From a virus, in IMG/VR virus record IMGVR_UViG_3300042935_000384, positions 1-24,513 of that record: a stretch of 24,513 nucleotides of DNA; one strand, given 5' to 3'. Below are positions 3,159 through 8,736 of this stretch, piece after piece. Made by a program: the position numbers and the translations under genes. The notes beneath the pieces were generated by a model. That model had not been told where the DNA came from, did not search any database, and saw only the letters and a program-made list of their open reading frames with translations. How positions within the stretch are numbered: the stretch's first letter is position 1; every line of letters starts with the position of its first letter.

Positions 3159-3176
3159 GTGACTTAAATAAGTCAC
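3159..3176. promoter_or_regulatory. Palindromic element, copy 1 (GTGACTTA-AA-TAAGTCAC)
   Basis: Two perfect 8-bp arms flank a 2-base centre. It lies 21 bases before the start codon of the replication operon (ATG 3,135-3,137), immediately upstream of the ribosome binding site. The same sequence recurs at 7,232-7,249, 8,170-8,187 and 8,719-8,736, always between minus-strand genes. It is probably an operator for a dimeric regulator. A hairpin in the mRNA leader is the alternative. Confidence 0.75.
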
Positions 3177-4887: not shown

Positions 4888-5823
4888 TTATTTCTCATCG
4901 CCAAATGGCGCATAGCAGGCACAGGCTTCGGTGTCAGCGTCGCAGAAGTAGCACGTGCCACACTCTGTACACAACTGAACATCGTCATTGACTAGATCAA
5001 AGATGGCAACATTGTGGCAGGTGTGACATTCCCACTGAACGATGTCAGAGATCTCATCTGCATCATCAGGGTGAACCCATGTACCCTCAATGTGATCGTA
5101 CATAAGATCACCATCAAGCCAAGTGCGTGCCACATATGAATCAACCACATGATTGTAGTCATCAGTGAACGTGTCCTCGTCATCAAACAAATACTGATCG
5201 TCTAATGCGGGCGTGGTCTTGGTCGGATTGTATGTGCCGTACGAAGTGCTTGAACTGTACGATGGATACCACACAGTCTCTTTGTACGAACTATTGCTGT
5301 ACCACACACCATCTTTCCAATGACCAAGATGTTCGTTGATGATATAGAACGGGTTGGCTAACTGTGAACCCGTGTTGAGGAACGCAAGTTTAGAACCGCT
5401 AGCAAACTTGCTGAGTTCGGCAACACCAGCCTGCGTGTCAAGCAGATCGGCCATATCAAACTGAGGCAACCATTCAGTAGCGAACAAGTGCGTATCGGAC
5501 TTACCGTTCTCCTCTTTGATTGGCAACATACCGTTATGACCCATCACTAATTCCTCATTGACTTGGAATGGGTGACAGTTCTCAACATTGGTAACACCGT
5601 GAGTGGTGATACGCAAGTGAAAGATTGCGTGACCCTTAGGGAAGCTCTCTCTCATGTCGTAGAAGTTGCCGATGGTGTCCTCAAGATCCATTGACTTGTA
5701 AGTATGGATTTTGTTGTTGCCGATAATGGCGAAGCCGAAACCGTCAGGGTTGGCTTTGCCTGCTCGGCGTAGTGATTTCTTGGAAGGCGTTGAACCGCCC
5801 TTGGCTAGGATTAGTAAACACAT
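4888..5823 (-). CDS. Class II glutamine amidotransferase with C-terminal cysteine-rich module
   Basis: A 311-residue Ntn-type amidotransferase. Seen: Cys2 directly after the initiator Met (the expected catalytic nucleophile once Met is removed), NPDGFG (25-30), HLRITTHG (69-76), NCHPF (82-86), GHNGML (95-100) and SDTHLF (109-114). These are the glutamine-binding and active-site blocks of class II enzymes. The family hydrolyses glutamine or a similar amide and releases ammonia. A Tyr/Ser/Asp-rich linker follows, then eight cysteines between 266 and 303 arranged as CxxC, CxxC, CxxC and CxC, which should bind one or two zinc ions. The start at 5,823 is certain because it must place Cys at position 2 and has AAAGG upstream. 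A longer frame reading into the amidoligase gene is rejected. It lies directly downstream of the amidoligase gene. Confidence 0.9.
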   Translation of the reverse strand: MCLLILAKGGSTPSKKSLRRAGKANPDGFGFAIIGNNKIHTYKSMDLEDTIGNFYDMRESFPKGHAIFHLRITTHGVTNVENCHPFQVNEELVMGHNGMLPIKEENGKSDTHLFATEWLPQFDMADLLDTQAGVAELSKFASGSKLAFLNTGSQLANPFYIINEHLGHWKDGVWYSNSSYKETVWYPSYSSSTSYGTYNPTKTTPALDDQYLFDDEDTFTDDYNHVVDSYVARTWLDGDLMYDHIEGTWVHPDDADEISDIVQWECHTCHNVAIFDLVNDDVQLCTECGTCYFCDADTEACACYAPFGDEK

Positions 5824-5878
5824 GATTGTGCCTTTCTGTTTGTGATTGTTTGTGATTGGTTGTAGGGATAAGGATAGG

Positions 5879-7138
5879 TCACACGCAACGAGTTGCCATG
5901 ACAGATGGAAGGAACTCATATGACTGTTCAGACAGCCACATCTTATATGAACCCCATGCGAGGTGACCGTTAGCAACTTCCTTAGCGGTCAGCAACTTGG
6001 TGTATGAGTGAACGCTATGGCAGAACTCAACAACACCGAGAATAGTCTCAGGCTTGAGCGAACCACGGAAGTAACGCAACTCAATGGTGTCGCGGTTCTG
6101 AAAGTTGAGCGCACTGTAACGATTGTTCTGTGTGCGATTGCCCTTACAGATTTCAACCATGTTGTCATAGCCGTAGTCAGTCGGATCGGTGGTGCGACGG
6201 AATGTTGCCCAACGCTCAGAGTCACGGCCAGCAAACTTCTTGATGGTATCCGCATTACGATAGTGGAACATCTGAAACTTGTACTGATGTGACGCACCAG
6301 CAAAAGACTTCTTACTGATGTGGACATGAAGCCCTGCGCCTGTACCGTTCACCGATGACCATGATGACAGTGAGTATTGCGACGACAAAGCAGAGATCGC
6401 TTCACGAGGTAGCAACATCTTGTGTGCCTCAAGTGTGAACGGGTGTGTCACAATCTCAAACCCTGAGATTGAACCGTCCTCCTTGTTGTACAAGTATTCG
6501 TCGGGTGCTTCACTCATAAGGAAGTCGCTTGCGTCAGTGACACGAGAACGGTCACGGGCGTTCGTCTCCACCTCAAGTCCGAACATCGGCTCGCTGACAA
6601 TCGCACGAGGCACCATCAAGCCACGCACCAACTGCGACTCAACAACCCAACCGAATACAGCAGTAGGTTTGGCTGAGTACGACAGAATAGTGGACTGCCG
6701 TTGATTGTCGGGGTTCTGATCGTGTTCCGACCAGCAGTCCTCACAGTACGGGTCACCATCATCATCGTGATACGAGTAGTCGCAATGGACTACAGTTCCG
6801 CAACGATAACAGTCACTGTAGTTCTCGTCGCAACTACTGCAACGCCCTGTGTCCTCGTTGAACAAGGCGTAATGAAAGTGTTCGTTGCAATCGTCACAGT
6901 AGTGAACTAACTCAACACCCAAAGCCTCAATGACATCAGTTGTGTAGTGAATGTCCTCAGTATCGTGACGATAACCGAACGACATGGTTTCATTATCCCA
7001 GCCCACAACAGCGTCACGGCGGAACGTCACTGTCTCATAACCATGATTGTCGTCGTTCAAGACAACACCAGTGAAATGACACAGTTCAATTTCCTCCTCG
7101 TCATCGTCGGGGATTTCGTTTTCTATTTGATTAGGCAT
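5879..7138 (-). CDS. Amidoligase (glutamine-synthetase-like COOH-NH2 ligase) with N-terminal cysteine-rich module
   Basis: A 419-residue protein. The C-terminal ~240 residues carry the blocks of the Amidoligase_2 type: FGLEVET (186-192), NKEDGSISGFEIVTHP (218-233), GLHVHIS (269-275), NRYSALNFQNRDTIELR (339-355) and FRGSL. The conserved acids, histidines and arginines are all present. The family joins a carboxyl group to an amine using ATP. The N-terminal third is acidic and contains nine cysteines between 81 and 135 (C81, C84, C100, C103, C110, C113, C119, C132, C135) plus several histidines, probably two or more zinc-binding knuckles. AAAAGGAG precedes the ATG. A palindrome (7,232-7,249) lies 93 bases upstream, and the next gene is the class II amidotransferase. 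Substrate and target cannot be read from the sequence. Confidence 0.88.
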   Translation of the reverse strand: MPNQIENEIPDDDEEEIELCHFTGVVLNDDNHGYETVTFRRDAVVGWDNETMSFGYRHDTEDIHYTTDVIEALGVELVHYCDDCNEHFHYALFNEDTGRCSSCDENYSDCYRCGTVVHCDYSYHDDDGDPYCEDCWSEHDQNPDNQRQSTILSYSAKPTAVFGWVVESQLVRGLMVPRAIVSEPMFGLEVETNARDRSRVTDASDFLMSEAPDEYLYNKEDGSISGFEIVTHPFTLEAHKMLLPREAISALSSQYSLSSWSSVNGTGAGLHVHISKKSFAGASHQYKFQMFHYRNADTIKKFAGRDSERWATFRRTTDPTDYGYDNMVEICKGNRTQNNRYSALNFQNRDTIELRYFRGSLKPETILGVVEFCHSVHSYTKLLTAKEVANGHLAWGSYKMWLSEQSYEFLPSVMATRCV

Positions 7139-7209
7139 TGCTTTCTCCTTTTATGTAACCGACACGGTATTGTGTTCGGTAGTGCGTAGTCGGGTTGCGA
7201 ACACCGACA

Positions 7210-7223
7210 AGCCACGCATGGCT
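7210..7223 (-). other. Small hairpin in the amidoligase leader
   Basis: AGCCA and TGGCT arms (5 bp) flank a 4-base loop, in the 93-base leader between palindrome copy 2 and the amidoligase start. No T-run follows. A similar small hairpin follows palindrome copy 3 (8,146-8,159). Confidence 0.35.
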
Positions 7224-7231
7224 ACGCAAAT

Positions 7232-7249
7232 GTGACTTATTTAAGTCAC
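7232..7249. promoter_or_regulatory. Palindromic element, copy 2
   Basis: On the minus strand it reads GTGACTTAAATAAGTCAC, identical to copy 1 read on the plus strand. The perfect arms extend to 9 bp (7,231-7,250). It begins within a few bases of the stop of the preceding gene and lies 93 bases upstream of the amidoligase start, so it heads the amidoligase operon. Confidence 0.75.
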
Positions 7250-7251
7250 AA

Positions 7252-7690: not shown

Positions 7691-7855
7691 TTATTTCCTG
7701 CTTTCTGTTTGTTGTGGATTGACACGCCAATTCGGGTGGCGATAATTACGCTGTGTCTCGTATGTGCCGACACGCTTGCCCATCTCGTAGGCAAAGCCGA
7801 CGCACGCCACGAACAGTAGCGATGCAAGAGCGAGTAGAATGTATGGATACATCAT
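7691..7855 (-). CDS. Small single-pass membrane protein (54 aa)
   Basis: Residues about 3-23 (YPYILLALASLLFVACVGFA) form one hydrophobic helix, followed by a short basic and polar tail (EMGKRVGTYETQRNYRHPNW). The orientation is probably N-out, C-in, judged from the positive tail. The start ATG overlaps the previous stop as ATGA, and the stop TAA lies one base before the next start, so all three genes should be translated as a block. The role is unknown. Small early-expressed membrane proteins in phages include superinfection-exclusion and host-takeover factors, but nothing here selects between these. Confidence 0.72.
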   Translation of the reverse strand: MMYPYILLALASLLFVACVGFAYEMGKRVGTYETQRNYRHPNWRVNPQQTESRK

Positions 7856-8088
7856 TCACCCACCGACAAAATAGGACGAGCAGGATACTTGGCTTGCAAC
7901 TCAGCCAACTTTGCACGACGCTCAAGAGCACGAGCCTGGTTGTTAGTCAAAGCAACAGACAAAATGTCTCTCGCCTGCTGTAATCCTGCAATCACACTTG
8001 CGGTATCTATCCGCTGTTGTGCAACGACAGACTCAAGATGAAGCAGGTAACCTGCGACATCGTAGAGTTCCTCTTGGTTGATATTCAT
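7852..8088 (-). CDS. Unknown small helical protein (78 aa)
   Basis: Almost entirely alpha-helical. It begins MNINQEELYDVAGYLLHLES, then an AQQRIDTASVIAGLQQARD helix and an Arg/Ala/Leu helix (RALERRAKLAELQAKYP). It may form a helical hairpin or oligomer. AAGGAAA lies upstream of ATG 8,086-8,088. It is the first gene after palindrome copy 3 and its stop overlaps the membrane-protein start. No function is recognised. Confidence 0.75.
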   Translation of the reverse strand: MNINQEELYDVAGYLLHLESVVAQQRIDTASVIAGLQQARDILSVALTNNQARALERRAKLAELQAKYPARPILSVGE

Positions 8089-8169: not shown

Positions 8170-8187
8170 CTGACTTAATTAAGTCAC
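8170..8187. promoter_or_regulatory. Palindromic element, copy 3 (TGACTTAATTAAGTCA core)
   Basis: A 16-bp perfect palindrome (8,171-8,186). The outermost base pair of the 18-bp consensus is mismatched. The stop codon TGA of the preceding gene (8,184-8,186) lies inside the palindrome. It heads the three-gene run 8,088-7,252. Confidence 0.72.
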
Positions 8188-8699
8188 TTATTACCAAGCG
8201 CACCAAAGGCGAGCAAAGAAGCAACTTCACGATCAGTGAAACCAGCCTTGCGCAACACGCTAGCGGCCTTCTCCTTTTTCTCACGATTGAAACGAACACT
8301 CGGTGCTTCCTTAACAACAGCCTTGCCCTTGTTTTTCTTAGCAGTGATATCTGCGTCAAGGCGAGCAAGCATTGCAAAGTTCGTAATCGTCGCAGGCTTG
8401 TAAACGACAGCGACACGGTTCATCGCCTCAACCTGATTCTTTAACGACTTCGCACTTTTCTGAATGTCAAGATCAGGCATGGACTCAACCCACTCACCGA
8501 TGAACTTGCCGATGGTGTAACCAACCTTGCCGTACTTAGTCACTTTCAATTTGCTCAACCGATTGTTCTCCTTTTTCCAAACGAGGTAAAGGTCAATGAC
8601 TAGAGCAATGTTCTGCTTGCCAATTTTTTCTAAAGCCGTTGTCAATGGCTTGAAGTTGATGTTGCTTTCGGCGGGTACGCCGTGTTCCTGAATGGGCAA
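8184..8699 (-). CDS. Unknown basic protein, TTG start (171 aa)
   Basis: Not recognised. It is lysine-rich. An N-terminal part (residues 15-60) has LTTALEKIGKQNIALVIDL and an ENNRLSKLKVTKYGKVGYT stretch, and the C-terminal part (about 130-171) is a basic linker followed by a helical KAGFTDREVASLLAFGALG segment that could be a small helix-turn-helix. Nucleic-acid binding is plausible but not shown. The start is TTG (8,697-8,699): AAAGGAG lies six bases upstream and no ATG occurs in frame for more than 70 codons. Palindrome copy 4 is 19 bases upstream, and copy 3 overlaps the stop, so the gene is bracketed by two copies. Confidence 0.75.
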   Translation of the reverse strand: MPIQEHGVPAESNINFKPLTTALEKIGKQNIALVIDLYLVWKKENNRLSKLKVTKYGKVGYTIGKFIGEWVESMPDLDIQKSAKSLKNQVEAMNRVAVVYKPATITNFAMLARLDADITAKKNKGKAVVKEAPSVRFNREKKEKAASVLRKAGFTDREVASLLAFGALGNK

Positions 8700-8718: not shown

Positions 8719-8736
8719 GTGACTTAATTAAGTCAC
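8719..8736. promoter_or_regulatory. Palindromic element, copy 4 (perfect 18-bp)
   Basis: GTGACTTAATTAAGTCAC is a perfect 18-bp palindrome. It lies 19 bases upstream of the TTG start at 8,699, just before the ribosome binding site, the same geometry as copy 1. Both copies 1 and 4 are preceded on the minus strand by a similar TAACC-(A/C)ATCAAA stretch. Confidence 0.78.

Follow-up and report, generated by a model that had tools for sequence, protein, structure and literature searches.

Pairs of an amidoligase and a glutamine amidotransferase (GAT) have been annotated in phages for more than a decade without a tested substrate, and one such pair on a viral DNA fragment raises the question of what the two enzymes do together. 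The window analyzed here is the whole 24.5-kb fragment (24,513 nt) of IMG/VR record IMGVR_UViG_3300042935_000384. Its minus strand carries genes for a DnaB-like helicase and an exonuclease, its plus strand carries terminase, portal and virion genes, and no nucleotide relatives of it were found among phage records.

The two enzymes encoded in the window

The amidoligase gene (5879..7138, minus strand, 419 aa) lies upstream of the adjoining GAT gene (4888..5823, minus strand, 311 aa) with 55 nt between them, in agreement with the original prediction of two adjacent, co-directional genes. The former runs from ATG 7138 to a stop at 5879 and is preceded by an AAAGGAG ribosome site. The start of the latter was placed at ATG 5823 (Met-Cys) and not at the mechanical ORF start 5976, because the nucleophilic cysteine must sit right behind the start methionine. 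The further suggestion that the pair heads an operon does not strictly hold, since co-directional genes flank it on both sides.

The amidoligase scored 29.7 bits against Pfam Amidoligase_2 (PF12224), above the curated cut-off of 22, and matched phrog_22302 (1.9e-31), phrog_2443 ("amidoligase", 8e-9) and phrog_16683. Its glutamine-synthetase-fold catalytic domain (5885..6601, minus strand, about aa 180-418), delimited by invariant residues, structure model and fold match, contains the glutamine synthetase (GS)-type motifs ExE, DGS, GxHxH and ExR, found in the window as FGLEVE, DGS, GLHVH and TIELRYFRG as predicted. Alignment of 55 amidoligases revealed G187, E189, E191, K219, D221, E228, G269, H271, H273, R305, R340, N345, T351, E353 and R355 as invariant. 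Comparison of the structure model (pLDDT 82) with YbdK and glutamine synthetases gave Z scores of 12.2 to 10 (rmsd 3.4-4.8, 173-229 residues aligned, about residues 180-418), with YbdK, at Z 12.2, and glutamate-cysteine ligase among the best fold matches. The likeness to YbdK, GS and glutamate-cysteine ligase extends to the pattern of active-site motifs, whereas identity is about 10-16% and the N-terminal cysteine module of the amidoligase lies outside the matched region. This module (6734..6898, minus strand) consists of four CxxC pairs (81/84, 100/103, 110/113 and 132/135) preceding the catalytic domain; C110 and C132 are invariant among the 55 relatives, and C113 and C135 nearly so. It is weakly LIM-like, LIM-domain profiles matching it at E 0.025.

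The GAT scored 21.6 bits against Pfam GATase_4 (PF13230), just below the cut-off of 23, and is thus not a member of that Pfam model; it matched phrog_25883 (4.8e-25), and a profile built from 53 of its relatives matched PurF and GlmS chains (5e-6 to 1e-5). The expected profile match was obtained outright for the amidoligase, and for the GAT through the GlmS/PurF route and not through GATase_4. Its Ntn-hydrolase glutaminase domain (5275..5823, minus strand, aa 1-183; again defined by invariant residues, model and fold match) displays the complete class II (Ntn) signature, with Cys2 behind the start methionine, HxRxxT, the NG oxyanion pair and SDT, and the predicted blocks NPDGFG and HNG were likewise found. 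C2, N25, H69, R71, T74, N97, G98 and D110 are invariant in 53/53 GATs and T111 nearly so; C2, H69, R71, T74, N97, G98 and D110 are also invariant in a wider set of 18. The structure model (pLDDT 77.5) adopts the Ntn glutaminase fold, matching GlmS (3ooj; Z 14.1, rmsd 3.5, 171 residues aligned) and EgtC (4zfk; Z 13.5). The GAT resembles the glutaminase domains of GlmS, PurF and EgtC in fold (residues 2-183, Z 11-14), in C2, in RxxT and in NG; in contrast to them it has no fused synthase, and in its place a C-terminal eight-cysteine module (4915..5028, minus strand; C266, C269, C285, C288, C291, C294, C301 and C303). Seven of these cysteines are invariant among the 53 relatives and C301 is kept in at least 90%, a conservation equal to that of the active site. 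Almost every environmental phage GAT of the set carries the module; it is missing in MEP phages, a Manatee Spring phage and some gut phages.

Both proteins have profile matches and predicted folds of the expected kind, and no outcome that the original prediction had listed as refuting it was observed. Profiles, folds and invariant residues bear out the original enzyme assignments, and we regard the family of each protein as near certain. Judged from motifs and models, both should be active enzymes, and the cysteine modules of both likely bind metal.

Gene pairing and the putative joint reaction

Relatives were collected with an amidoligase alignment, not conditioned on the presence of a GAT, which yielded 80 viral contigs; these and other loci were reduced to 80 non-redundant phage loci (90% aa). 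A co-directional GAT is the next gene downstream in 75 of the 78 testable loci (2 of the 80 were too short), often overlapping the amidoligase gene by 31 nt. A second set of 80 cellular loci, nearly all clostridial, showed a GAT adjacent downstream in 64 by profile, and GAT is also the largest recurrent neighbor family there (73 of 80 loci). Many clostridial loci have recombinase-like or relaxase-like neighbors, indicating that they are probably mobile elements. The pairing is near-obligate, and the functional link originally proposed for the two genes is strongly supported by gene order in both phages and clostridial mobile elements.

Other partners are less constant. Neither an ATP-grasp nor a GGCT family was present among the recurrent neighbors of the phage loci. 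No GGCT gene was found in the complete Marvin genome, the complete MEP402 genome or 15 environmental contigs, while two cassette-type phages did match; none was seen in the window, itself a fragment. The COOH-NH2_lig (PF14395) profile for a second ligase matched no sequence, the positive controls included. In 48/80 loci a WhiB gene is located downstream of the pair, which indicates actinobacterial hosts for most carriers; none was found in the nearest relatives of the window. A second, shorter amidoligase-like ORF was observed about 0.4-0.5 kb upstream of the main amidoligase in three loci (L045:8700-9506, L064:8817-9467 and L072:8708-9523).

The constant GAT and the lack of any other constant partner fit a two-subunit enzyme. 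We tentatively favor, at somewhat less than an even chance, the reading that the amidoligase and the GAT are two halves of one glutamine-dependent (amidating) ligase. The GAT would hydrolyze free glutamine at Cys2 and pass the ammonia to the amidoligase, whose GS-type site would activate a carboxylate with ATP and turn it into an amide, following the logic of MurT-GatD or AsnB assembled from other parts. The cysteine modules would probably join the two subunits into a complex, or join them to their target. Our best guess for the substrate is a carboxylate of a cell-envelope peptide, with a presumed benefit to the phage. The invariance of all GS-type motifs (ExE, GxHxH and ExR), the match of the model to YbdK and GS (Z 10-12) and the missing GGCT in Marvin, MEP402 and the 15 environmental contigs would fit such a ligase. 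In the GAT, the nucleophile C2 and the oxyanion pair N97/G98 are retained, as are R71 and D110, which we take, by comparison with GlmS, to be the residues gripping the free alpha-amino acid end of glutamine. On the other side, YbdK, the closest solved relative, joins amino acids and not ammonia, and three loci with sufficient room (L023, L026 and L027) have no adjacent GAT. The GAT of a larger podovirus cassette has moreover been taken in the literature as a degrading enzyme (PMC5498523).

The published reading of that larger cassette (PMC5498523; PMC10580990) is one of making and breaking: the amidoligase would form, on a cell-wall peptide or a metabolite, a linkage of the isopeptide or gamma-glutamyl type, the GAT would hydrolyze such linkages, and the envelope would be remodeled, for example against superinfection. 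For the pair studied here we consider this somewhat unlikely. The best fold matches of the amidoligase include YbdK and glutamate-cysteine ligase, EgtC, a gamma-glutamyl hydrolase, fits the GAT about as well as GlmS does, and in phage StenR_269 the pair genes adjoin GGCT and ATP-grasp-type genes, all of which agree with it; however, the two-gene version comes without a detectable GGCT, the GAT is bound to the ligase almost one to one, and R71 and D110 suggest recognition of a free alpha-amino acid end, which is missing from the internal gamma-D-Glu of peptidoglycan.

The fold matches to YbdK, glutamate-cysteine ligase and EgtC could also point to a small soluble metabolite, a gamma-glutamyl compound resembling glutathione, mycothiol or ergothioneine, whose synthesis or destruction would alter the redox state of the host or supply phage nucleotide synthesis. 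The WhiB genes of many carriers suggest actinobacterial phages, and actinobacteria make thiols of this kind. However, the same pair is also found in clostridial mobile elements, and such thiols are generally missing from the hosts of these elements; the cysteine modules, too, suggest a macromolecular partner, so that we hold this explanation to be improbable. With the pair by itself as the constant core, in phages as in clostridial mobile elements, the problem shrinks to a two-protein reconstitution.

A tRNA-like mini-RNA and palindromes upstream of the pair

Alignment of the amidoligase leaders of close relatives revealed a T-arm enclosed by a 7-bp acceptor-like stem, with compensatory changes. 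In the relatives this mini-RNA consists of an acceptor stem plus a T-arm without an anticodon arm, on the sense strand upstream of the amidoligase. Upstream and downstream regions were scanned for this geometry (5-bp T-stem, TTCRA loop, directly stacked acceptor stem, short linker). With linkers of up to 30 nt, 28 copies were found upstream in sense orientation and 0 in antisense, while the downstream regions had 0 in sense and 1 in antisense; a stricter scan gave 10 copies, against a mean of 0.2 in Markov-simulated upstream regions. These strand and position counts, with the simulation, reject a chance origin. Across 17 aligned copies, 93.6% of the cells are paired (slid controls, 34-52%) and 11/12 pairs vary on both sides, the last T-stem pair (G53-C61) is an invariant G-C, and the TTCRA loop is stacked on the acceptor stem; 32 distinct copies gave the same pairing and covariation result. 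Because pairing was part of how copies were first chosen, the bias in strand and position is the cleaner evidence.

A covariance model, R1, identified 42 copies in 93 phage sources, all on the amidoligase strand and at most one per locus (among them L063:3993-4039, L101:9452-9498, L052:9153-9199, L107:9069-9119 and L035:8644-8690, with 37 more matches). Of the 64 non-redundant environmental loci whose upstream DNA spans 700 nt or more, 35 contain the mini-RNA, and in the other 29 it was not found; it mostly lies 0.4-1.3 kb upstream of the amidoligase, with 12-19 nt between acceptor and T-arm (29 in L030). A reverse search of all viral contigs with two patterns found 20 stretches; in all 17 with enough downstream DNA an amidoligase follows 438-675 nt downstream, and a GAT comes next wherever the DNA extends that far. 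Two lineages that differ in their terminase and portal families are among the carriers, and the copies are not all independent because of shared ancestry within each lineage. No R1 match was obtained in Marvin, MEP402 or nearly all clostridial loci, no Rfam family matched at the mini-RNA (window, L063, L101, L107 and L015), and no paper on this element was found. ARAGORN called no tRNA in the window; of 18 relatives, 17 had none, and the single call, in L039, lies elsewhere. The element is therefore termed tRNA-like and not a tRNA, as it has neither an anticodon arm nor full length.

The window itself carries a degenerate copy in the amidoligase leader (7182..7228, minus strand), recognized as an inverted repeat and in the leader alignment, in which a 7-bp acceptor-like stem (TGCGTAG/CTACGCA) surrounds a T-arm-like hairpin. 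R1 gives it only 11.0 bits (E 1.1), and in place of the canonical T-loop it has TTCGCAA, with one extra T, so any function there is doubtful. A leader hairpin, CCGAACACAATACCGTGTCGG (7159..7179, minus strand), just upstream of the ribosome site, is predicted to fold and is kept in seven aligned leaders.

In the main clade the mini-RNA lies about 10 nt behind a stop codon, and after it come a palindromic hairpin and, further on, the next ribosome site; two small genes, one encoding a single hydrophobic helix, lie between it and the amidoligase. A small hydrophobic protein is also encoded ahead of the pair in the window's relatives L033 and L035, and the small proteins between mini-RNA and amidoligase (L069:1129-1474, L063:4139-4478 and L035:8992-9165) are possible targets or partners. 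Just upstream of one clostridial amidoligase-GAT pair are two short tRNA-like sequences ending in CCA (L183:7321-7370 and 7721-7782), with two full-size tRNA-like genes further downstream.

Hairpins of an acceptor stem plus a T-arm are RNase P substrates, and RNase P also cleaves phage RNAs and mRNAs (PMC11143913). The mini-RNA has exactly the acceptor plus T-arm, in a 12-bp coaxial geometry, of the RNase P model substrates (acceptor stem, T-stem and T-loop hairpins) and the phage M3 and C4 RNAs; it differs from these as a conserved, covarying element between phage genes upstream of an amidoligase, at which cleavage is putative. The most economical reading is that it is probably a processing signal for RNase P/Z, splitting the upstream message from the amidoligase message. 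Covariation between the 5' and 3' strands of the acceptor makes a tRNA remnant or attachment site unlikely. A reading as general punctuation, repeated at many gene borders, is weakened by the single canonical copy in each whole positive contig, although the window's clade does have extra TTCGCAA variants.

The mini-RNA might instead be a working partner of the two enzymes. Charged by the host with an amino acid, a minimal tRNA would act as substrate or adaptor for the amidoligase and GAT, which would put the amino acid or an amide on a target, as a tRNA-dependent amidotransferase outside translation. The covarying acceptor and T-arm, the unfailing sense-strand position upstream of the amidoligase across lineages with different terminases, the one canonical copy per positive contig and the pair behind all 17 testable pattern-found copies would suit a partner of this kind, yet the mini-RNA is not found in 29 of 64 loci with room, nor by the model in Marvin, MEP402 and nearly all clostridial loci, the phage copies have no CCA end, the window copy is degenerate, and a place about 10 nt past a stop codon and ahead of the next ribosome site is that of a cis processing signal. 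We consider both this role and a single system of mini-RNA, amidoligase and GAT improbable. The element nevertheless offers a new handle on these phages, in which either early messages would be tagged with a minimal RNase P/Z substrate or a minimal tRNA would enter the chemistry.

Next to the degenerate element lies a palindrome with 9-nt arms, TGTGACTTATTTAAGTCACA (7231..7250), which had been proposed as the pair's own operator. Further copies occur at 3159..3176, about 20 nt ahead of the point where a minus-strand gene starts, at 8170..8187 (1 mismatch), between genes 8184-8699 and 7852-8088, and at 8719..8736, just upstream of gene 8184-8699. With four occurrences in the window, where 0.21 would be expected, GTGACTTANNTAAGTCAC forms a dispersed, phage-specific set; relatives carry other palindromes at the same position, each phage repeating its own word, and an operator private to the pair was accordingly rejected. 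Three or more copies of one palindromic word were found in 45/70 loci, against 0/70 Markov-simulated loci; the word-repeating loci include L031, L033, L034, L035, L011, L036, L039, L041, L052, L069 and L094. Going by their sequences, the palindromes look like binding sites of a regulator whose specificity would change (diversify) from phage to phage.

Comparison with known phage systems

Comparative genomics of amidoligases by Iyer, Aravind and colleagues in 2009 reportedly tied phage pairs to peptide or metabolite modification. The association of such pairs with phages, which the original prediction had mentioned, is already published (PMC10580990, PMC3890496, PMC5498523). For the phiEco32 proposal, PMC10580990 cites Iyer et al. 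2009. An amidoligase plus GAT has been described in OM43 phages (PMC10580990), in UFV-P2 together with ATP-grasp and AIG2/GGCT (PMC3890496), and in RIO-1-like podoviruses within a "peptidoglycan modification cassette" (PMC5498523). We found the pair also as gp105-gp106 of Mycobacterium phage Marvin, as gp06-gp07 of MEP402 and in a Manatee Spring podophage.

In Marvin and Marvin-like phages the same two genes are likewise adjacent and ordered as in the window (identity about 31% for the amidoligase and about 34% for the GAT), and the Marvin pair retains the N-terminal and C-terminal cysteine pairs seen in the window; it differs in lying at the right end of a complete 65-kb genome and in having no tRNA-like element that R1 detects. 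In the OM43 (Methylophilales) phages MEP401 and MEP402, whose genomes are complete, the pair is adjacent and MEP402 is without a detected GGCT, but the GAT has no eight-cysteine module and the amidoligase has a long unrelated N-terminal part. The podovirus cassette (phiEco32, RIO-1, PSA-HP1, LUZ24, tf and UFV-P2) shares Amidoligase_2 and the class II GAT, among early genes (PMC5498523, PMC3890496), whereas it adds GGCT/AIG2, ATP-grasp and a second ligase; no GGCT or ATP-grasp family recurs as a neighbor around the pair of the window type. The cassette of Stenotrophomonas phage StenR_269 (L025) contains two separate GAT genes and a GGCT-like gene, and the same run includes two tRNA genes and genes annotated as D-Ala-D-Ala ligase and glutamine synthetase; in Manatee Spring phage ctfjg026 (L020:5001-6218), GAT and GGACT domains reside in one protein, a natural fusion of the hydrolase types. 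Given the published pairs of OM43 phages, UFV-P2 and RIO-1-like podoviruses and those of Marvin, MEP402 and Manatee Spring, the pair is a known kind of phage module, and what is distinctive here is its stripped two-gene form, the cysteine modules on both partners and its surroundings.
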